A DNA stretch of 20,407 nt from a virus. Where the stretch lies: positions 1-20,407 of IMG/VR virus record IMGVR_UViG_3300046655_000080; one strand, 5' to 3'. The number at the start of each line of letters is the position of its first letter. Positions within the stretch are counted from its first letter, which is position 1. Below are positions 6,453-18,475 of this stretch, in pieces. The position numbers and the translations under genes were made by a program. The notes under the pieces were generated by a model, which was not told the origin of the DNA, did no database searches, and saw nothing but the letters and a program-made list of their open reading frames with translations.

Positions 6453-9400
6453 TTATTTATTGAGTTGGTTTAGAATTGCAGGAGCGACGCCAGAAGCTTC
6501 ACCACTCCTTTCGTACTTATAATTAATTAACTGTTCTAGAGTCTTATAGCGACCATACTTTTCAAACTCCGGTGTATTTTCTTCGTTTTCTTCGGTAGAA
6601 ACGAATGACTGTTGGAGTTCTATGTCGTCAAGAATGTCGTTCTTAACGTCTTTGTGATAGCTTCGGAATATTGAGTTGAGACTCGAAATAGCGGGGTTAG
6701 TAAACTTACCGGGAGTGTCGCTCGGTATCGCCCCTTCATCCACCCACGCTTTAAAATCTTCGTTGTTAATTTCGTTGTAGATGTCTTGTTTTACGTTTGT
6801 CTCTCTAAGTTGTTTATTGAAAGTATAAAGCAGTGTGATGCCGTCTTCGTTTGTAAACTGGGTCATATTAATACCTCCCATTAAAAACGTTGGTTGTTCC
6901 ATTAAATCGCCGTACACATCTTTGTTTCGGAGTTCGGTAAACTCATCTCCTTCAGTAATCCTTCCCGGTGCTAGACGTGTAAATTGTTGAGCGCCTGTTC
7001 GGGTTGATTCTAAATCTTCTCCAAAGTCGTCTGTCTTGTAGTTTTTAGGGCCGTTTCCAAACGCTTCGTAATACGCACGGTCGAGAAAGCTACCACCACG
7101 TAAGTCGATGATTTTACCATCCGATTGCGCCCATTTACTTGTCTTCTTAATTTGCGAGGGCGTAAGGTTGAACGAGTTACCAAGCCCCGAAATAGCTCTC
7201 ATACGTATTTCTTTCGTACCCGTCAGGATATGCTCCACCGTCTTCGCTCCTTGATTGGCTGGCATGTCTTGGAATGTTGCCACCATTGAGCTTTTAATAA
7301 CGTCAAATAAATCTTGGTTGTCGCTGAGTATCTTCTGTCCTGTGCGTTTTTCTTCTATTTTATACGAGAGCCACGTACGAACGTCAGCACCAACTACCAA
7401 CGCTAAATTGATAGGTATCCAATCTTTAACGGATATACCAAACACCGTTTGGGGCGGTTTGTAACCCGGTGAACCTTGAACGCCTTCGTGTGCTTTACGC
7501 TGGTCTTCGTTCATCCACGCGTTCGTTCCTTGCGTGTCGTTACTCGACATTGCATAAGCAAAGAACGTCGCGCCTAAAGCCGCATCCGCATAAGCATCCC
7601 TGTTGTATTCAATCCGTCGTTCGTCGAGTGTTTTTAGTTTTTCTTGAAGCCCTTTAATCGCTTCTTCAGCGTCCGCTTTATCCGAGGCGCTTGTCTCAGG
7701 ATTGTTAACTGTGTCCGTGAGTCCTGCCAAATCGGTTTCAACGTCCTGCATCTTACCCTTGTACGGGTTGCGGTACTTTTGGATCGCTGTGGAACCGCCG
7801 TAAGTAATCGGAGCCGCCGCTACTCGTCCCATCATACCGAATCCCCGCATGATAACACCGAAGTAGGGAACAAGCGTTCGTACCGTCCATCCAAAGCTAG
7901 GGTGATCGATAGGTTGTTTAAGAACGTTATTTGCCTTCACAATCGTTTCAGCTAAAGGCACAGCAATTTCGCTTGGATCGCGATCTGCTACGTTCGCCAT
8001 AAAAAGAAGCTGACGGTTTGTTTTATCGACCGCCATAGCCCGTTCGCCTATTGAGCTTAATACGCGTAGCCCGTCCGACTCCGTCCAATAAGAATCAAAT
8101 ATAATCTTTGCTTGCTTCTGAGTAGACGCCCAATCGCCTTTGTGAGCGGGGTTTAGAGCGGCCTCTTGAAGCGCTTCCGCCCATAGGTTGGAATGAATCA
8201 ACGGACGTCTAAATCCGTCATCAACGCCTTGAATACCACGCGCGCCAAGAGATAATGCCCACGTCGCCCAGTTACCTATAGGCAACGATTTAGCTACGAA
8301 GTTCTTCCATTGGGATTCTGTTTTTATTCGAGCTTCAACACGGCGTCTTGCTTCTTTCAACTTACGTTGACTACCTAGAGGCTTACTAACGTCAACGTCG
8401 TCAATCATACGTCCCCTTCCGCCTGTACCGCCTGTGGCGCTTTCGAAATCTCTCATGGTGCGTCCCATTGACTTAAAGAGTTCTTTGGCGTGGGTTTTCT
8501 TAAAGAAGTCGAACATTTTAAACGCCGCCGCTACTTCAATATTAAAGTTAAGATTAGCGCGACTTAATGTCATACCGCTCTTAGCGTCTTTGCCTACGGC
8601 CTTTCTGAATAAGTCCCCGACAATATCCATTAAATCGTTCGTCCAAGCGGCGGGAGGGCGAATAAATTGCTTACCAATGCCGGAAACACCTGTAACCACA
8701 CCAGCGAGCGATGAAGGTACTTGGTTAATAAGTGACAACTGTCGAGCGACTAACCAGTTTTCCGCCAATGAATCGACACCGAATTTTTGGTTCTTTTTAG
8801 CAATGTCGTACATCGCTTGTTCAGCGCTGGCTAAGATACGAGCGTTGATACGCGCTTCGATCTCGTCTTGTTTCGCCTTTGTTATATCCCTGACTTTAGC
8901 CCTCATACGCGATTTGGACTCTCGGATTTTCTTACGTAATTCATCGGAAGCTTTAGGCTTTGTCGGCCCTTTAGGCTTTGGATCAGTCGCCGCCCTCATC
9001 TCGCCTACGACTCCCCGTGCTTCCATCTCTACGGTGTCTGCAAATTCCTTTTCCAACTTGGCTAACAGGAGCGCTTCTTTCTCGGCGTCTCTATGCCATT
9101 TTAACTGCGCTTCTTTCTCGGCGATAACAGGATGCTTCTCAGGTTTAGGTTTATTAGCGGCGGCTTCAGCGCGCGCTTCAACGGCGTCCATGTCGCCGAA
9201 CCGTTCCCGTGCTTCTTTTAATTCCTTGTCGAGACGCGCTATCTTACGTTGATGTACCTTTGCCGCTTGTTCGGCTTGGAACTCAGGCGTCATTTCTAAA
9301 CGCGCTCTATCGATTTCACGAACACGATTCCTCATGTTCTTTTTAAGAAACGCTATATCTTCGTTAAGCTTCTCAATACGTCCAGGAGCTTTGTTATCCG

Positions 9401-12281
9401 TCTTAGTGGATTTAGTTATTTCCGCCCTTTGAGCGCCTACTGGCCCCGTTTCCAACGCAAGAAGTCTGTTACGCTCTGCTATCTTCTTATTAAGTGTTAT
9501 CGCTTCCTGACGCGCTTCCTTATGGAATTTGATCTGCGCTTCCTTCGCGACTATGTCGGGATGCTTCTCTTTCTTAGGTGCGCCTTCAACGTCGTCTTTT
9601 ACTAACGCGCTGTCGTCGCCAAATTCTTTACGTAATTGTTCAAGTTCCTTGTCTAACTTCGCTATCTCTTCGTCATGGAGTTGTGTTGCTGTCTTAGCTT
9701 CTTCCTTGTCTATACGTGCTTGGTCAATCTCACGCACACGGTCACGCATGTTCTTACGAAGGAATGCGATGTCAGCGTTTACTTTCTCCAACTTACCCGG
9801 CGTCTTACTCGGCCCTTTAGGCTTTGGTGATGTCTCGTCACGCTGTGCGCCTAGACGTCCTGTCTCTATTTTAAGTAGACGGTCACGCTCTTTAAGGCGT
9901 TCGCCTAACTTTATGGCATCACGCTCGTTAGCTTCGTGAAAACGTATACGCGCTTTAAGATCGGCGACCTCCTCGCTTGATTCTTGCTTCTTAGCTTGTT
10001 GTTGAAGCGTGAGTTTAGAGTCGTCCCCAAAGCGGTCTTGTAATTTCTTTAAGCGTTTCTGTAGACGTACTTTCTCTTTCGCTTCTAACTTCTCTACACG
10101 CTTCGGATCTTTCGTCGCCTCTTCTTCGATGTTACGACGTTTATGATCCTTTACAGCTTGCTTATGAATGTCCTTACCTTGCTTACGTAGATTAGGACTC
10201 ACTTCCAGCACTTGCTTATACAGATTATCTAGCTCGATACCGTCTGCTTCTTCTAACGACTCACGAAGTCCTCGTTCTAACTTAGACCACGCATCGTCTT
10301 GAAGGAGTGCCTCGTTGCTTTTCTTGGTCTTCCACCAATCCGCTGAAGCTATTTCCTTTTGAGACTGTGTAGTACGTCCACCCATAGCGCGTACGGGATC
10401 GCGTACTTGATCGTTTAACTTGCGGATAAAGCGTACGACATCTAAGGCTTCTTCAATTACGTTGGTATCGCCAATGCCTTGGCCTTTCTTACCGCCTTTG
10501 ATGCTCTTTAAATAATCGTCACCTAATAGTCCGTAGAGTTTTATAAAATGTTCGTCGTATAACTTTCGAGATTCAAGCCCGATATTAGGAAGTTCAATCG
10601 ATCCTTCTTCTTGGGGCTTCATTCCCTTCAAACGTTTCTTTAGTTCTTCTAACTTCGATTCATGTTCGGGCAGATCGACAGTCGGTTGCTCTGGCGCTTT
10701 AGGCTCTTCCGTCTTTTTTCTTAACTTCTCCTCTGCTTCCTTTAGTCTTTTTTCCCGCGCTTCTAATGCTTCAGTATCTTTAAAAAACTTATTTTGCCCT
10801 ATTACTTCTGGTAGTGCTTCATCATCTCCTTGTTTAAGTTTATCTTCAGTTACTTTATTAACAACGGAATCGCTACTAGGGCCTCTACTACCGTCAGGGT
10901 TTAATTCGTAAGTAGTAGTTCCTTGATATTTTCCCTCGTGCCATTTAACGACAACTTCAACAGGGCTTCCTTTATCGTCTACACCCTTCCATGAACTTGT
11001 CTTTACTTCTACGCCCGATTCGCCTTTAGCTTCTGTAGTGGTTTCCCATTGTTCTTTAGGCGCTGTTACTTCGGGTTCCTCGACGGTTGGCTCTTCTGTT
11101 TTAGGTGCGGTAACATCAGGTTCTTCAACGGTCGCTGTTACTTCAGGTTCTTCAACGGTCGGTTCTTCCGCTTTAGGCGCGGTTACTTCGGGTTCTTCAA
11201 CGACGTCTTTAAGCGGTTGTGGGTTAGCTTCACGATCCTCGATCATCTTGTTACCGACTTCGATCTCTTCCAGTCCTTCTTCCGCCATCTGTTTGACTTG
11301 GTCGAGTTGTTTTATCTGCTTCCTCAGTCCAAACTTTTTACGTGCCGCTACGGCGTTGGCGCGCGGGTTTCCTTTAAGTAAAGCCTTTTTGTTAAGCTCT
11401 GCGAGTTCGGCTTCAAGCGTAGCTTTTTGAGCGTCTACATTATTGACGACACGTTGCGTAGCCTGAACCGCTTGGTCGCGTCCCCACGCCCCTGACTTAC
11501 GCCATAAACTCCACAACGACCCAGTACCTTTAATAGCGAGGTTCATACCACCGCCTGCCGCCATTGAAGATAGATAGTCGTATTCGTTACGGTTCTCGAC
11601 CTCGTTCATCATGACCGCAAGTTCTTGACGAAAGATCGATTCAGCTAATCCGAGAGTAGCGCCGCTTACGACTGTTTTAGTTCCGTTTAACATGACGGTT
11701 CGAGCCTTCGCTCCAAACGCGTCACCTACGGCAGGTTGAGCAAATTGGAATATCTTACGACCTTCTACGAACTTTTGAACGGGGGATATACCGAAAGCAA
11801 AAGTCGACCAAAGTTCGGATGCGTGAGTGTCGTCTGTTTGTTTACCTTCGCCGTCTAGTTGAATGCCGTAATACTTACGAACTTCTTGTCCGAGAAAGTT
11901 TCCTGTCATCCATGTTAGACCTTCCGTACCTACCATCGCCGCCCAACCTAAAGGATTCGACCAAAATGCCGGATTTGTTTTGGTTCCTCGATTCACCCAC
12001 TTTAAACCACCGAGATATTTTTGAGCCGCCATTGTGCCGGAAATACCGACGCCCATCTCCACGCCCATACTCTTCAACCAAGAGGATACTTTCCCTTCGT
12101 CGATTTTGGCTTGTTTCTGAGCTAGTTCGATGTCGTATTTTAACTGATCAGAAGCTCTAAGTACGTCGGCGTTAATATCAACAGGATCGCTTTTCCCCGG
12201 TAACACATAATCCGAGACAGCGCCTGTTTGGCGATCTTCGTCATCAAGTGCTTGTTGAAACTGTTCTTCGAGGCTACTCAT
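6453..12281 (-). CDS. Giant internal virion protein, T7 gp16-like position, 1942 aa
   Basis: The gene follows the gp15-like gene by 3 bases, the place of T7 gp16, which has 1318 residues and is ejected into the cell envelope. Residues 1-330 include hydrophobic Gly-rich stretches (MGVGISGTMAAQKYLGGLKW). Residues about 359-408 are a P/E/V/T repeat linker. Residues about 728-1146 form three tandem charged helical repeats. The C-terminal part shows WVDDGFRRPLIH-type sequence (VDDGFRRPLIHSNLWAEALQ near residue 1350) and LVPYFGVIMRGFG near 1469, patterns I associate with large virion proteins of marine podophages. No lytic transglycosylase motif is seen. The role in genome ejection is inferred from position. 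Confidence 0.82.
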   Translation of the reverse strand: MSSLEEQFQQALDDEDRQTGAVSDYVLPGKSDPVDINADVLRASDQLKYDIELAQKQAKIDEGKVSSWLKSMGVEMGVGISGTMAAQKYLGGLKWVNRGTKTNPAFWSNPLGWAAMVGTEGLTWMTGNFLGQEVRKYYGIQLDGEGKQTDDTHASELWSTFAFGISPVQKFVEGRKIFQFAQPAVGDAFGAKARTVMLNGTKTVVSGATLGLAESIFRQELAVMMNEVENRNEYDYLSSMAAGGGMNLAIKGTGSLWSLWRKSGAWGRDQAVQATQRVVNNVDAQKATLEAELAELNKKALLKGNPRANAVAARKKFGLRKQIKQLDQVKQMAEEGLEEIEVGNKMIEDREANPQPLKDVVEEPEVTAPKAEEPTVEEPEVTATVEEPDVTAPKTEEPTVEEPEVTAPKEQWETTTEAKGESGVEVKTSSWKGVDDKGSPVEVVVKWHEGKYQGTTTYELNPDGSRGPSSDSVVNKVTEDKLKQGDDEALPEVIGQNKFFKDTEALEAREKRLKEAEEKLRKKTEEPKAPEQPTVDLPEHESKLEELKKRLKGMKPQEEGSIELPNIGLESRKLYDEHFIKLYGLLGDDYLKSIKGGKKGQGIGDTNVIEEALDVVRFIRKLNDQVRDPVRAMGGRTTQSQKEIASADWWKTKKSNEALLQDDAWSKLERGLRESLEEADGIELDNLYKQVLEVSPNLRKQGKDIHKQAVKDHKRRNIEEEATKDPKRVEKLEAKEKVRLQKRLKKLQDRFGDDSKLTLQQQAKKQESSEEVADLKARIRFHEANERDAIKLGERLKERDRLLKIETGRLGAQRDETSPKPKGPSKTPGKLEKVNADIAFLRKNMRDRVREIDQARIDKEEAKTATQLHDEEIAKLDKELEQLRKEFGDDSALVKDDVEGAPKKEKHPDIVAKEAQIKFHKEARQEAITLNKKIAERNRLLALETGPVGAQRAEITKSTKTDNKAPGRIEKLNEDIAFLKKNMRNRVREIDRARLEMTPEFQAEQAAKVHQRKIARLDKELKEARERFGDMDAVEARAEAAANKPKPEKHPVIAEKEAQLKWHRDAEKEALLLAKLEKEFADTVEMEARGVVGEMRAATDPKPKGPTKPKASDELRKKIRESKSRMRAKVRDITKAKQDEIEARINARILASAEQAMYDIAKKNQKFGVDSLAENWLVARQLSLINQVPSSLAGVVTGVSGIGKQFIRPPAAWTNDLMDIVGDLFRKAVGKDAKSGMTLSRANLNFNIEVAAAFKMFDFFKKTHAKELFKSMGRTMRDFESATGGTGGRGRMIDDVDVSKPLGSQRKLKEARRRVEARIKTESQWKNFVAKSLPIGNWATWALSLGARGIQGVDDGFRRPLIHSNLWAEALQEAALNPAHKGDWASTQKQAKIIFDSYWTESDGLRVLSSIGERAMAVDKTNRQLLFMANVADRDPSEIAVPLAETIVKANNVLKQPIDHPSFGWTVRTLVPYFGVIMRGFGMMGRVAAAPITYGGSTAIQKYRNPYKGKMQDVETDLAGLTDTVNNPETSASDKADAEEAIKGLQEKLKTLDERRIEYNRDAYADAALGATFFAYAMSSNDTQGTNAWMNEDQRKAHEGVQGSPGYKPPQTVFGISVKDWIPINLALVVGADVRTWLSYKIEEKRTGQKILSDNQDLFDVIKSSMVATFQDMPANQGAKTVEHILTGTKEIRMRAISGLGNSFNLTPSQIKKTSKWAQSDGKIIDLRGGSFLDRAYYEAFGNGPKNYKTDDFGEDLESTRTGAQQFTRLAPGRITEGDEFTELRNKDVYGDLMEQPTFLMGGINMTQFTNEDGITLLYTFNKQLRETNVKQDIYNEINNEDFKAWVDEGAIPSDTPGKFTNPAISSLNSIFRSYHKDVKNDILDDIELQQSFVSTEENEENTPEFEKYGRYKTLEQLINYKYERSGEASGVAPAILNQLNK
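8844..10100 (-). repeat. Three tandem ~138-residue charged repeats in the giant virion protein
   Basis: Landmark block FGD recurs at residues 751, 887 and 1028 (codons at 10029-10031, 9621-9623 and 9198-9200), spaced 136 and 141 residues apart. Each unit contains in order: a KLDKELEQLRKEFGDDS-like helix; a (R/K)FHxxAxxEAI-like helix (RIRFHEANERDAI, QIKFHKEARQEAI, QLKWHRDAEKEAL); a G-x-x-GAQR or GVVGEMRA turn; a proline/lysine linker; and a RVREIDRAR-like helix (RVREIDQAR, RVREIDRAR, RVRDITKAK). Copies 1 and 2 are most alike and copy 3 has diverged. Boundaries are approximate. Confidence 0.9.
11058..11206 (-). repeat. Pro/Glu/Val/Thr short-repeat linker
   Basis: Residues about 359-408 of the giant virion protein are built from the units EEPEVTAPK and EEPTV, with five EEP(E/D)VT-type copies. 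DNA copies of the EEPEVTAP unit are near identical. The composition predicts an extended, flexible acidic spacer between the N-terminal hydrophobic part and the charged helical part. Confidence 0.85.
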
Positions 12282-12284
12282 ATA

Positions 12285-14576
12285 TTAGAGGCGTTCGCGA
12301 TTCTGAAAGAGATTGAACTGTGCGAACTTAAATGTGTCTAAGTCGTCTTCAGAGAAAATTCCGTAAGGAACGTACTGCTTTTGAATCTTACGTTCTTCAG
12401 CGTTTAAAGGTTCGTTATCAAAGTCTTTTTTAACGACGGCTCGCCACTCTTCAACTTTCTCACTCAATTCTGTAACACTAGAAAACAAACGTACATCGTC
12501 AACATCTAAACGTGTTTTGGCTAATATCTCAGCGTTGCGCTCGCTAAACCCGTTAGGGAAACCGTAGTTCCATAGAGACCTCGATAAGTGACCAACGCCT
12601 TTCGCCCCCTCTTTAATCATCGCTTCTCTGTCTGTAAGAACGTCTTGAATAGTTGCGCCCTGTTGACTAGGGTCGTCGATTACAGCCAATGACCTATAAG
12701 TAATCGTGTCATTGAAAAACCCTTTATCAATACCTTTAGCGGATACCATTGACTGTAAAACACTTGTGCCGGGACTCGCTTTCTTAAACTCGCCGTCCGT
12801 CTCACTTACATACCCTTCGGGTTTAAGAGCGTTTATACTGCTATCATAAATACGTTGGAACCTGTCGACTTGTTGTTGAATCAAAAGTTGTTGATGACTG
12901 CTTATATCTGAAGCGCGGTCTTCTTGCGTCTCAAACGTCGTGTACTTTTCTTTGCCTCGGTTTCTAAGTTCCCGCTGTACGTAATCAATCATATCCCGTT
13001 GATAATCGGCAAACAAAGTATCCATAAAACCTTTTTGTCTGACATTTCGAATAGCGTCTACACGTTTCTTTATTATTCCTTTTAAATCGGTTGAAACGCT
13101 TTTATAAGCAGGTACGTCTTTCACGAATAAACCTTGTAGAGATTCCACTTGCGCTTTTTTTAATTCGGGGAAAGTTTCAAAGTTACCCTCTTCGCCGAGC
13201 GACGCTTTATACTCTTCGATCGTTCCGTCATTCTTCTCGGCCCACTCGCGGTATCCGGCTTCAAGAGCGTTCTTCTCCTCCGGCGAGGTGACCACGCGCT
13301 TACGTAAGGTTAAGTCCGTGAAAGTCTTACGCCGCGTGGATGTCGTTCCGAAAAATATCTGGGAAGCGTTGTCGCCAAACGAAGTAGACCGTTGCCTTAA
13401 AACCTGTTCGTAGTCACCACTTGGATTATTAGACTCTTGTAACTCGCTAACTACCTCCTCGATCTCCTCGCTTCCCATACTCAACATGCCGAGAGTTTGG
13501 CGGACTCCTGTCCATATTTGATCGGGGACTTCTCCGCCATTATCAAACGAGTTTAAGTTCATTAAGTCCGTGGCCCACCGTCCTGTAAACTCTTGCTTCT
13601 GCGACGCTATAGAGCGTGTGGCTTGCGTCTTACGAGCGCTGGTTAAATCCGCATAAAGTTGATTCGTTACGCGTCTCGCTTCGCCTGTGTTAAAGACCCG
13701 ACGACCGCCTATAACGGTGTCTTCCATCGCATTTAACATATTGTCAGCGTCGTCAAGACGTCCTTCTACGATAAGCGTCTTAACACGTGTGCCTGTCTCT
13801 TTAATGATAATCGAATTACGAGCGGCTTTGTCAGTAATCCCGCTTTGTTTCATCAACTCTTCGCGGCCTTTGATAATTTCTTTTAATCCGACAACATCAA
13901 GAGGAAGGGCTTCGCCTTCAGCGTTTACCCGTCGTTGTGTTATATCGTTAAGCTGTAGCGAATATTCTTCCGCTTGTCCGTCCTCGATAAAGGCGTCTTT
14001 CTTCTTATCGTAAGCCGCGAGCATATCCGCCTTGAACGGCCCTGTGATCGAGTTCCATACGACAGAGGCTCCGTCGCTTGACGCGGCTTCCTCACCGATC
14101 TGTCCTGAGAAATCTTCCCACTTCTTTTTAGTAAAGTCATCGACCGCTTGTAAGAACGATGCGTTGTCTTTGTATTTCTCAACGTCCAACAAAGCGTCTG
14201 ACTCCGCTTTCATAGCGGGTAGTAAATCGTTGTTCACAGCGCGTTTGATAAGCGTGTTACGAAACGCACGGTTACGGTTCTCGATGCCTAAAACTTGAGA
14301 CAATGAACCACCGCTACTACCTTTGCCTTTGATCTTGTCCATGACATCAGCGTCAGCGACCTTTAAAGCTTCGTCCTGTCCGATAGCAGTTTCAACACGG
14401 GCGATCCCTGCGTAATTCTCTAGTATCGGATTGATCTTCGATAAGGACGCCGCTAAGTCCATCATCTTATTACTTCCGGCTTGTTGCACCGCCACGCTGT
14501 ATTGACCGCCGCTTCTAACTGTAGGCTGTAAGCCGGGAGCGTCGGGAAGGTCTTGTACTTGTACTCGTTGTGCCAT
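12285..14576 (-). CDS. Internal virion protein, T7 gp15-like, 763 aa
   Basis: T7 gp15 has 747 residues and lies between gp14 and gp16, as this gene does. The sequence is polar and mostly helical, with a Gln-rich N-terminus (YSVAVQQAGSNKMMDLAASL) and repeated charged helices such as TFETQEDRASDISSHQQLLI. There is no signal peptide, membrane helix or recognisable enzyme motif. By analogy to T7 it would form part of the core stacked on the portal and then a periplasmic tube during DNA entry. Assignment rests on order and length, since similarity in this family is low. The ATG directly abuts the gp14-like stop and has no Shine-Dalgarno sequence. Confidence 0.75.
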   Translation of the reverse strand: MAQRVQVQDLPDAPGLQPTVRSGGQYSVAVQQAGSNKMMDLAASLSKINPILENYAGIARVETAIGQDEALKVADADVMDKIKGKGSSGGSLSQVLGIENRNRAFRNTLIKRAVNNDLLPAMKAESDALLDVEKYKDNASFLQAVDDFTKKKWEDFSGQIGEEAASSDGASVVWNSITGPFKADMLAAYDKKKDAFIEDGQAEEYSLQLNDITQRRVNAEGEALPLDVVGLKEIIKGREELMKQSGITDKAARNSIIIKETGTRVKTLIVEGRLDDADNMLNAMEDTVIGGRRVFNTGEARRVTNQLYADLTSARKTQATRSIASQKQEFTGRWATDLMNLNSFDNGGEVPDQIWTGVRQTLGMLSMGSEEIEEVVSELQESNNPSGDYEQVLRQRSTSFGDNASQIFFGTTSTRRKTFTDLTLRKRVVTSPEEKNALEAGYREWAEKNDGTIEEYKASLGEEGNFETFPELKKAQVESLQGLFVKDVPAYKSVSTDLKGIIKKRVDAIRNVRQKGFMDTLFADYQRDMIDYVQRELRNRGKEKYTTFETQEDRASDISSHQQLLIQQQVDRFQRIYDSSINALKPEGYVSETDGEFKKASPGTSVLQSMVSAKGIDKGFFNDTITYRSLAVIDDPSQQGATIQDVLTDREAMIKEGAKGVGHLSRSLWNYGFPNGFSERNAEILAKTRLDVDDVRLFSSVTELSEKVEEWRAVVKKDFDNEPLNAEERKIQKQYVPYGIFSEDDLDTFKFAQFNLFQNRERL

Positions 14577-15174: not shown

Positions 15175-15651
15175 TTATTTATAGATTTTAAATTGTTTAT
15201 AACCGTCGATTGAACACTCTTCGAAGATGGCTCCTAACCAAACCAACCATCGCATGGAGAGTTTGTTGTCCGTCATAATGACGTTTGTAAGTACGTCATA
15301 ATCGCCCATCATTCGTTCTATCCATTCTTTTGAGTGTTTAATAAAAGTCTTTTTAATGAGGTGCATTCGATGCGTTCCTAATAACCACGGTATTCCTACC
15401 TTCGGGTCTTCAGACGCACATACACCGAAGCTTCCAACCATTCGATAATCGTCGGTCAAGATCGTCCAAGCGCGTTCAGAGCGTTCGTAGGACTCTTTAA
15501 GAGCGATACGGGGATGATGACCCAGACCGATACACTCAAGCATATCCATCGTTCTCATATCGTCGTATACCTGTGGTAGATCAAAATCGCCTTTAGCGAC
15601 TTCAATACGGCAGTCCGTATATTCTTTAACTGTATCGCCGGGATCGTGCAT
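15175..15651 (-). CDS. T7 gp13-like internal virion protein with GNAT-like fold, 158 aa
   Basis: The C-terminal half resembles T7 gp13: a YDVLTNVIMTDNKLSMRWL segment, then WLGAIFEECSIDGYKQFKIY, matching the "N...H.RFL...GA.F" pattern. The central TILTDDYRMVGSFGVC and GIPWLLGT parts look like the beta strands of GNAT acetyltransferases, the fold used by the gp13 family. The acetyl-CoA loop (Q/R-x-x-G-x-G/A) is not evident, so catalysis is doubtful. T7 gp13 is needed for particle assembly but is not clearly part of the final core. The start overlaps the tube protein B gene by 26 bases; T7 gp13 has 138 residues. Confidence 0.78.
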   Translation of the reverse strand: MHDPGDTVKEYTDCRIEVAKGDFDLPQVYDDMRTMDMLECIGLGHHPRIALKESYERSERAWTILTDDYRMVGSFGVCASEDPKVGIPWLLGTHRMHLIKKTFIKHSKEWIERMMGDYDVLTNVIMTDNKLSMRWLVWLGAIFEECSIDGYKQFKIYK

Positions 15652-18475
15652 GAATGAAACTTTCGAACTCTGCCGCTAATAACTTCATAGGCAATGCAGA
15701 GGACGATTTAACTTTGATGACAACGTCATCGTGTTTGGTGTGGATTGGAAAGCGAAAGGAACCACTATCTAAAGCTAACGATCCGATTACAGCGTCCGCT
15801 CCAAGTGTGGTCGGATTAAACGCATAGGAATACGTGTCTCTAAATTGTGGTGTCACCTCAACGGTAAAGTGTCCAGTCTCATCGTATTCAATCGATCCGT
15901 TACGTAGGACTTGATTGGTAAAGTTAGATGCGGCACGTCCACCTCGTTCGGTAGGTTGCTTTAAGGTCTGCGTTGAAAACGTGTAGGAAGCTTCGTATTC
16001 AAACCCGACAAAGAACGCGGTAGAAGAGAAGTCGCCTTCAAGCGTGAACGAAGTAGTAGACACTTTAGTCACCGTTAAACGTAATCCGTCAGCGGTATAA
16101 GCGACGGTTCCTGCCGGGTCATAAGGCATTGTAGTAAAAGTCGTCTTGTTTGTAGTGGCGTTGTAAGATGCGGACAAAGCAGAACTAGCGACCCTACTGT
16201 CAAGATGTATCGAGTAAGTCTTACCTGTATCTTTATGTCCTGCTTCCATCGCCATCTTTTCAAGATGTCCGTCCTTGGTAATGATGAATAAATCACTATC
16301 GATAAATCCGCTTCCTACGATGTCCTTAGCGAAGTCAAAACGCATCCAAGCCGATTGTACTTTTTCCCTGTTCGTCCAGTAATATTTATAGACATACAAA
16401 TGTTTTAAATTAGAGCCTGAAGCGGCGACTATAACGTCTTCACTAGGCGTACCTGAAAGACTGCGTAAGCTTGACGGTATGTAAGTAGGTACTTGAGAAG
16501 TGATTTCAGACGCGTCAAAAGTGTCCGTATTCTTATCGATAAAGAACTCGTACATTCCTTCGTATTGATCGCGTGGAAAACTGAAGTAGATATAGTTAGT
16601 AAGCGCGAGTGGAGCGATGTCACTAGACACGTTGTACTCGGTAATTGGCGATATGTTGACGGTTTTAGGCGTCAATAAATCAGAACCTCTTAACACGAAC
16701 TGTGACTGAGGACTAAATAGAATGAGCTTCTCTTGGAACGGTATAGCGTGTTTAAGAAGTGATACCTTAGTGTGTGCGACTCCAACGTCGATTGGGGCGC
16801 TGTCAAGAAGCGATTGAGTAGTCGTTCTCCAGAAATTGAAATACGAATCAGCTTCGGAAAAGATGACGTTATTGTCAGTAAGAAATCCTAAACGGTTCTT
16901 AAAGAAGAAGATGTCGTTAATGGTGGTTCCAACAAAAGAAGGTAGAGGATTGGTAGATAGATTTCCCGCATACCTTTTTACCCAAGCCGCAGGACGCACA
17001 CGATATGCGTTTATAGTTTTACCGTCCGTAGCAAAGCCGTTGTTAGTCGCGTCAGGGTCTGGAATAAGTTCGACAGGTAAAGTCGCAGGATCAAACGCTA
17101 TTAGCTCTCCTACAGTTTGTCCTGTTTTAGAACCGTCGGAACCCCAACCCACGCATTCAACCCATGCTCCTTCTCCAAAATCTTCGTTATCTTTAGTTTC
17201 AAATTCGACGTAATAATCATCTTGATCGAGTTCAACGTCACCTCTGATTTTTACTTTAAAACCATCAAAACATCGAGCAGGAAGGTCAGTAATATAAGCA
17301 ACCTCTTTATAAATAACGCCAAGACCTGTATTAGATAAACCGTCTTTAGCTGATATTTGAAAATCAAGCCCGTCAGATTTGCTTATCTTTATAAGGCTTC
17401 CTTGACGTTCTGCGTTTACCGTTCCTGAATCGGGAGTTGTAGTAGCTATAGCGCCCGTACCACCGCCTGTGTACGAAATCCAACTATCGCTAGTAGGTCC
17501 TGGATGCAGCTGCCATTGGCCCGAATCCCATGGCCTTGAAGTCGTTTTTTCGGTAATAGTAACCGTCGGTGGAGACGTATAACCCATACCACCGCTCGTT
17601 ATATTTACACCTGTAACCACTCCTGAAGAATTAATAACAGCTACGCCTCTGGCTCCTGAGCCTCCGCCGCCTGTAAATTCAACTTCAACCTTTGCGCCGT
17701 AATAATAGCTACCTCCAGAGCCAGTCCCCGCGGGACGAAATAAATCAGGAGTTCCGGCGGGAGCATATTTTGATGCAAAGGGTAATACTTGTGTCTTAGT
17801 AGCCGTAGCGTCTGTTAGGTAACCGCTTCCTCCGTTTGTTATCGTAACGCTTGTAACACTCCCCGCGGTAACCGAGGTAAAAGCCGAAGTAAGCGCCGTT
17901 GCAATAACTTCAGAATCGGCGGCTGATCCTGTAGAGCCTGACGTAATGGACACAGAGTCAGCACCGTCAATGGTTATGGTGTAATTAGTGTTATAAGCGC
18001 CTTGTTTAACAAAGACTAAAGCTTCTTTTGCCAAGGACGGAGAAAGTTCTGTGGTCGTGTCGCCCGTCACTTGTTTATTAACGATGAAGGTCGAGTCAGC
18101 TACGGTAATGGCTTTTAAATCCTTTAACGGATCAGTAGCGGCGTTTAGATACGTTTGAGCGTCCGTAGCGTCTGTCGTTATAGGAAGCCCTGTAAGCGCG
18201 TCATAGACGTTTACGGAAGTCGTTCCGCCAGAATGATTAAAGACAGCGACGTGTTTATTTAAGCTATCTCGATTTATAAAATGTACTAAAGCGTCGTCTT
18301 CAAAAGACGTGTTTAGATTACCTACGTGTTCGGTATGGGGGCGTTTTGTAAGCCCGTCCACAACGGAACTAAAGGCGTTTATTTGTTCTTCAGCTTGTCC
18401 CGGAAACCTCAGATTGTCAGGCTGTTGCGAAACGCCTTGAACGAGGTTTGGTACGGAAGTAGTGAGTAACGGCAT
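15626..18475 (-). CDS. Tail tubular protein B (T7 gp12-like nozzle), 949 aa
   Basis: The N-terminus is diagnostic: PNLVQGVSQQPDNLRFPGQAEEQINAFSSV plus GLTKRPHTEH. Middle blocks such as WVKRYAGN, FFKNRLGFLTDNNVIFSE and LLKHAIPFQEKLILFSPQSQF are characteristic of T7 gp12-type nozzle proteins. T7 gp12 has 794 residues; the extra length is largely an insertion at residues about 205-350 with two Gly-rich modules. The C-terminal part (FTVEVTPQFRDTYSYAFNP) is beta-rich. It forms the hexameric nozzle closing the tail. The ATG lies two bases after the tube A stop and no Shine-Dalgarno sequence is seen. Confidence 0.93.
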   Translation of the reverse strand: MPLLTTSVPNLVQGVSQQPDNLRFPGQAEEQINAFSSVVDGLTKRPHTEHVGNLNTSFEDDALVHFINRDSLNKHVAVFNHSGGTTSVNVYDALTGLPITTDATDAQTYLNAATDPLKDLKAITVADSTFIVNKQVTGDTTTELSPSLAKEALVFVKQGAYNTNYTITIDGADSVSITSGSTGSAADSEVIATALTSAFTSVTAGSVTSVTITNGGSGYLTDATATKTQVLPFASKYAPAGTPDLFRPAGTGSGGSYYYGAKVEVEFTGGGGSGARGVAVINSSGVVTGVNITSGGMGYTSPPTVTITEKTTSRPWDSGQWQLHPGPTSDSWISYTGGGTGAIATTTPDSGTVNAERQGSLIKISKSDGLDFQISAKDGLSNTGLGVIYKEVAYITDLPARCFDGFKVKIRGDVELDQDDYYVEFETKDNEDFGEGAWVECVGWGSDGSKTGQTVGELIAFDPATLPVELIPDPDATNNGFATDGKTINAYRVRPAAWVKRYAGNLSTNPLPSFVGTTINDIFFFKNRLGFLTDNNVIFSEADSYFNFWRTTTQSLLDSAPIDVGVAHTKVSLLKHAIPFQEKLILFSPQSQFVLRGSDLLTPKTVNISPITEYNVSSDIAPLALTNYIYFSFPRDQYEGMYEFFIDKNTDTFDASEITSQVPTYIPSSLRSLSGTPSEDVIVAASGSNLKHLYVYKYYWTNREKVQSAWMRFDFAKDIVGSGFIDSDLFIITKDGHLEKMAMEAGHKDTGKTYSIHLDSRVASSALSASYNATTNKTTFTTMPYDPAGTVAYTADGLRLTVTKVSTTSFTLEGDFSSTAFFVGFEYEASYTFSTQTLKQPTERGGRAASNFTNQVLRNGSIEYDETGHFTVEVTPQFRDTYSYAFNPTTLGADAVIGSLALDSGSFRFPIHTKHDDVVIKVKSSSALPMKLLAAEFESFIHARSRRYS
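17426..17863 (-). other. Gly-rich insertion in tail tubular protein B
   Basis: Residues about 205-350 contain two similar modules: VTSVTITNGGSGYLTDATA (207-225) and VTGVNITSGGMGYTSPPTVT (287-306), joined by a Gly/Tyr/Ser-rich segment (GTGSGGSYYYGAKVEVEFTG). The "NGGxGYxxxP" pattern is common in surface and tail proteins of environmental phages. It probably forms an exposed beta domain on the nozzle. Function is unknown and the boundaries are approximate. Confidence 0.65.

Follow-up and report, generated by a model that had tools for sequence, protein, structure and literature searches.

The stretch of DNA analyzed here (the window) is a virus record of 20.4 kb whose late genes, on the minus strand, follow a T7-like order. 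Compared with the T7 record, it encodes, in this order, the major capsid protein, tube A, nozzle, gp13, gp14, a protein in the gp15 position, a protein in the gp16 position, tail fiber, and terminase. The gp16-position ORF is intact and, in agreement with a prior sequence-only reading of the locus, encodes a protein about 1.5 times the length of T7 gp16 (1942 vs 1318 aa). That reading had also linked the excess to a repeat, and the excess is indeed largely repeat, with an array of 416 residues against 624 extra residues over T7 gp16. The gp15- and gp16-position proteins and the regions of the latter are as follows.

12285-14576, minus: protein in the gp15 position, 763 aa, presumed periplasmic tube subunit by synteny with T7
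6453-12281, minus: ORF of the gp16-type internal virion protein, 1942 aa, flanked by the gp15-position ORF and the T7-type tail fiber; its C-terminal half has its matches among the internal virion proteins of T7-like phages of the marine branch
11382-12281, minus: conserved N-terminal region, residues 1-300, with weakly hydrophobic segments in homologues and no recognized transglycosylase
10482-11381, minus: acidic, proline-rich, fast-evolving linker, residues 301-600, with few conserved columns and a dN/dS of mostly 0.1-0.5 among relatives
10092-10481, minus: conserved helical region directly ahead of the repeat array, residues 601-730
9684-10091, minus: repeat unit R1, residues 731-866
9261-9683, minus: repeat unit R2, residues 867-1007
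8844-9260, minus: repeat unit R3, residues 1008-1146, whose orthologues are the last unit in relatives and, in one-copy relatives, the only unit
6453-8843, minus: C-terminal part, residues 1147-1942, with homology to marine T7-like internal virion protein D

Elsewhere among the late genes, residues ~254-320 of the nozzle protein (window 15626-18475, 949 aa) match PHROGs of head closure and baseplate proteins. A peptidoglycan-hydrolase domain was not recognized in either the gp15- or the gp16-position protein (window 6453-14576), unlike in T7 gp16 and K1E gp35.

The reading of the ORF product as a T7-like, gp16-type internal virion protein, already made from sequence alone, is borne out by gene order, a profile-profile match, and a fold match. 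Direct scans of the window protein produced no Pfam or PHROG family match. The family profile, compared with six described marine internal virion proteins, aligned over 563 columns in the C-terminal half (probability 98.1, E 1.2e-13), and a bridging protein (L078), which belongs to the family by profile (E 3e-25), matches the PHROG of internal virion proteins, phrog_6651 (5.5e-17). The predicted structure of the C-terminal part (pTM 0.62) matches internal virion proteins of Eyrgjafa (E 1e-11) and S-CBP3 (E 1e-8) in BFVD. Neither sequence nor fold searches of the PDB yielded a significant match (for the C-terminal model, none at E <= 0.001), and hhalign against T7 gp16 gave no match (best E 0.018, probability 2.6). 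We therefore place the ORF in the marine branch alone and do not regard it as a direct homologue of T7 gp16; it is mapped onto the T7 topology only by order and weak hydropathy.

The marine Autographiviridae internal virion proteins D of phrog_6651 (P-SSP7 gp16 and those of Roseobacter phage CRP-804 and Pelagibacter phages Eyrgjafa and HTVC041P) share the gene position, C-terminal homology, and a similar predicted fold with the window protein; they differ in length, the six that were fetched having 1205-1334 aa, and tblastn of phage records with unit-bearing homologues found no repeat unit. T7 gp16, which combines a transglycosylase with a DNA-binding hub, likewise lies between gp15 and the tail fiber, and its hydrophobic-soluble-hydrophobic layout may recur in the homologues of the window protein, where hydropathy is weak; unlike T7 gp16, the window ORF has no recognized N-terminal transglycosylase and carries the extra array. 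No Pfam match to an N-terminal lytic transglycosylase was obtained for the window protein or for P-SSP7 gp16, and this domain is also absent in P22 (PMC8954989). In the homologues, hydropathy clusters around residues 70-180 and again in the C-terminal half, a pattern also seen in the T7 control, and the array lies in between; in the window protein itself, hydropathy is weak in the N-terminal part, with no peak above the cut-off. By homology, the ORF product is probably present in the virion of this uncultured phage and ejected from it.

The array occupies most of positions 8844-10100 on the minus strand, which encode residues 728-1146 of the ORF and for which three tandem charged repeats had been proposed. 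The repeat is real and consists of three tandem units of ~137 residues that score far above shuffled sequences and controls. Whole-protein BLASTP self-comparison gave no off-diagonal match, and the units were therefore aligned pairwise over their whole length, resulting in Smith-Waterman scores of 292 (R1/R2), 199 (R2/R3), and 174 (R1/R3), with z values against 500 shuffles of 33.5, 21.7, and 15.9, respectively. Among 260 control stretches, each 140 aa long and taken from large proteins of related phages, the best score was 56, and an HMM of the unit matched none of 58 other large proteins of these phages significantly, gp15 homologues included, so that the repeat is not generic coiled-coil similarity. 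The FGD landmark recurs at residues 751, 887, and 1028, spaced by exactly the 136 and 141 residues originally given. The rest of the proposed landmark set is found in the copies in a form that is degenerate in the third, where KWHRDAEKEA stands for (R/K)FHxxAxxEA, GEMR for GAQR, and KVRDITKAK for RVREIDxAR. Self-similarity against a coiled-coil background and a repeat pattern in relatives had been set beforehand as the tests that could refute the repeat, and both favor it. Searched alone against PHROGs, the units produced only scattered matches (best E 0.0037) with no shared family.

Relatives were reached in IMG/VR by a nozzle search followed by a gp16 profile search and then a unit search; when the window protein or its gp15 served as the single query in IMG/VR, no or few relatives were returned. 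The unit HMM detected full copies in 72 distinct complete gp16 ORFs besides that of the window. Among the resulting 73 unit-bearing ORFs, 14 have one unit, 7 have two, 37 have three, and 15 have four, where the counts take in both pieces of one split ORF (L120) and, from a second (L100), the long piece; the median unit spacing is 137. The split in L120 (2224-7653) falls within the array and that in L100 (785-6732) before it, and each could be a sequencing error or a real break. Within IMG/VR, the unit was found nowhere outside the gp16 family. Among 50,697 phage records, tblastn did not find the repeat unit with three unit-bearing homologues and gave no match to the window protein. For a pattern scan, an alignment of 50 units was too diverse; a closer set of units worked in IMG/VR and identified no relative in 84,980 species genomes. 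A description of tandem repeats in T7-like ejection proteins was likewise not found in the open literature, and the initial remark that such a repeat is not known from these proteins thus stands for the described phages and the literature searched. The complete, unsplit unit-bearing gp16 proteins listed in this analysis have at least 1439 aa, compared with 609-1337 aa for gp16-like proteins (PMC8954989).

Among the unit-bearing relatives, each unit adds 145 aa to gp16. Ahead of the array, length is independent of copy number, the part after it varies with a standard deviation of only 18 aa, and no compensating change in length occurs in gp15 or in the flanking parts of gp16. A variable linker also alters the total length, and one-copy proteins accordingly span 1439-1663 aa. 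The length of gp15 is 713-831 aa at any copy number (slope -7.5 aa per unit, p 0.19).

The units cluster by position rather than by protein. The last unit is present in every unit-bearing protein, and the single unit of one-copy proteins is its orthologue; extra units come and go. A tree of 45 proteins built on the C-terminal part requires at least 13 changes in copy number, an approximate figure given that the tree is quick and has long branches. Three close pairs indicate, independently of any tree, that copy number changed recently. L103 (three units) and L127 (two) share 97.6% DNA identity and differ by one indel of 181 residues, equal to one unit plus linker; L091 (four) and L113 (three) share 97.7% identity, the indel here spanning 137 residues, or one repeat period; and L192 (four) and L210 (three) also differ by one in-frame unit. 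The L113 junction is a hybrid unit whose two parts meet in register at the KDI/AFL helix, as is characteristic of unequal crossing-over. Assembly collapse as the source of the copy differences was rejected, because copies within a protein average only 22-40% identity, the differences are in frame, and the junctions are defined.

Exchange of sequence within the array is apparent in the window itself, in a segment common to the window and its nearest relative (L083).

9267-9926, minus: recently exchanged segment, from the second half of R1 (R1b) through R2, identified by dS comparison

Between the window and this relative, dS is 0.26-0.32 in the segment, ~1 to saturation in the rest of gp16, and at least 0.76 in the other genes compared; the low dS relative to the rest of gp16 points to recent exchange. 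Strong conservation was considered as the cause of the 93% match of R2 between the two and rejected on the same ground. Jumps in dS within the array also occur in the pairs L092/L097 and L098/L099. Taken with the close pairs, these patterns indicate that recombination inside the array adds, removes, and swaps copies. The dN/dS of the units is mostly 0.01-0.2, similar to or below that of the C-terminal half and mostly below that of the linker, and this purifying selection argues that the units are functional.

AlphaFold predicts alternating helices across the array (residues 759-806, 830-887, 908-944, 968-1041, 1051-1089, and 1112-1164) with a conserved loop between, such that each unit is predicted to consist of two long helices and a conserved basic, proline-rich loop.

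9804-9851, minus: R1 loop GAQRDETSPKPKGPSK, residues 811-826, with the conserved pattern GxxGxQRAE..PKPxGPxK between the two predicted long helices of the unit
9390-9437, minus: R2 loop GAQRAEITKSTKTDNK, residues 949-964
8958-9005, minus: R3 loop GEMRAATDPKPKGPTK, residues 1093-1108

The packing of the helices is not reliably predicted (pTM 0.33), and the model of the array was for this reason kept out of the fold search. The helical rod that had been envisaged is supported in its predicted helices and not in its arrangement, which may be a rod, a bundle, or side by side. The heptad periodicity of the unit profile, near 3.5, is not significant (p at least 0.09), and we accordingly speak of helices and not of a coiled coil. 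The units are mostly basic, with a mean net charge of +2.5 to +9 by unit position and +5 to +12 for the units of the window.

In T7, gp15 forms the periplasmic tunnel and the N-terminal part of gp16 binds gp15, and the large middle of gp16, flanked by two membrane regions, has been assigned to the host cytoplasm as a DNA-binding hub (PMC8954989). We tentatively favor the reading, with a probability of roughly 0.45, that the array is a modular extension of this central DNA-handling region. The array would sit in the soluble center of the protein, with the conserved N-terminal part on one side and the gp16-like C-terminal half on the other, and, given that the middle of T7 gp16 is the DNA-binding hub, would most likely enlarge that hub in the cytoplasm. 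Each unit would contribute further helical surface and basic loops for contact with DNA or with neighboring gp16 chains during ejection, and copy number would tune the grip on DNA or the size of the hub, not the length of the periplasmic tube. Contact with DNA is compatible with the mostly basic units, an argument from charge in a setting where charged long helices are common; the mean net charge of only ~+2.5 at some unit positions counts against the hub, as do the indirect mapping onto the T7 topology and the low confidence in the helix arrangement.

The same features were weighed for a length ruler, in which a helical rod would set, by its copy number, the reach of gp16 across the envelope, to the inner membrane or cytoplasm, in a manner matched to the host, as in tape-measure proteins. 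The growth of gp16 in discrete ~137-aa steps with no compensation elsewhere in the protein, the long alternating helices predicted, and the repeated gain and loss of units are what such a ruler would entail. However, the length of gp15 does not track copy number, which argues against a simple ruler of the conduit; near-identical phages differ in copy number, so that a strict requirement is absent; and the variable linker changes the total length as well. The suggestion that the array sets the length of the trans-envelope conduit is not supported, given that gp15 length is independent of copy number and the array occupies the middle of gp16, away from the N-terminal part that binds gp15. This location, between weak hydrophobic regions in homologues, together with the flat gp15 length, favors extension of the hub over a conduit ruler. 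We consider a ruler unlikely, and it keeps some weight because gp16 itself could carry the extension. It is similarly doubtful that copy number is an adaptive dial by which unequal recombination adjusts the reach of the ejectosome or its grip on DNA to the host envelope or to the conditions of genome entry; if it were, this would be repeat-based length control in the ejected machinery of a short-tailed phage.

Long-tailed phages have tail tape-measure proteins, virion proteins that are long and helical and that change in length by units, and the window protein resembles them in these respects. It differs in virion position and fold context, and the units had no reliable match to tape-measure families, the best being R2 at E 0.24.

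Still less probable is a role confined to the virion, where the array would strengthen or fill the core stack on the portal or contact packaged DNA, with no function after ejection. In T7, the top ring of the core is made of gp16, with the genome around it (PMC8954989), and mostly basic, helical units would suit such a place; however, a single unit suffices in the one-copy relatives. Least probable is that the extra units are a by-product of recombination in an insertion-tolerant gene in which the last unit alone matters, as its universality among unit-bearing proteins, the transience of the others, and the wide variation in size of ejection-protein genes (PMC8954989) might suggest, because the extra units are under purifying selection at least about as strong as that on the C-terminal half and are position-specific orthologues retained over long divergence.

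The unit-bearing family bears on how gp16-type proteins, that of T7 included, pass DNA across the inner membrane and on the role of their large middle. The relatives constitute a natural experiment, in that they include variants one structural unit apart in an otherwise nearly identical protein, which makes it possible to relate copy number to ejectosome size, DNA translocation, and host range. This ejection-protein gene evolves by the shuffling of units, and part of its variation in size is accounted for in this way. One relative (L140, 7602-15044) encodes a 2466-aa gp16 with two units and ~900 extra residues, in which matches to methyltransferases are weak and below the Pfam cut-off. The linker of the window protein contains a second, short, acidic, proline-rich tandem repeat, VEEPEVTAPK / TEEPTVEE (residues 361-412; window 11046-11201, minus), which is partly common to the nearest relative.
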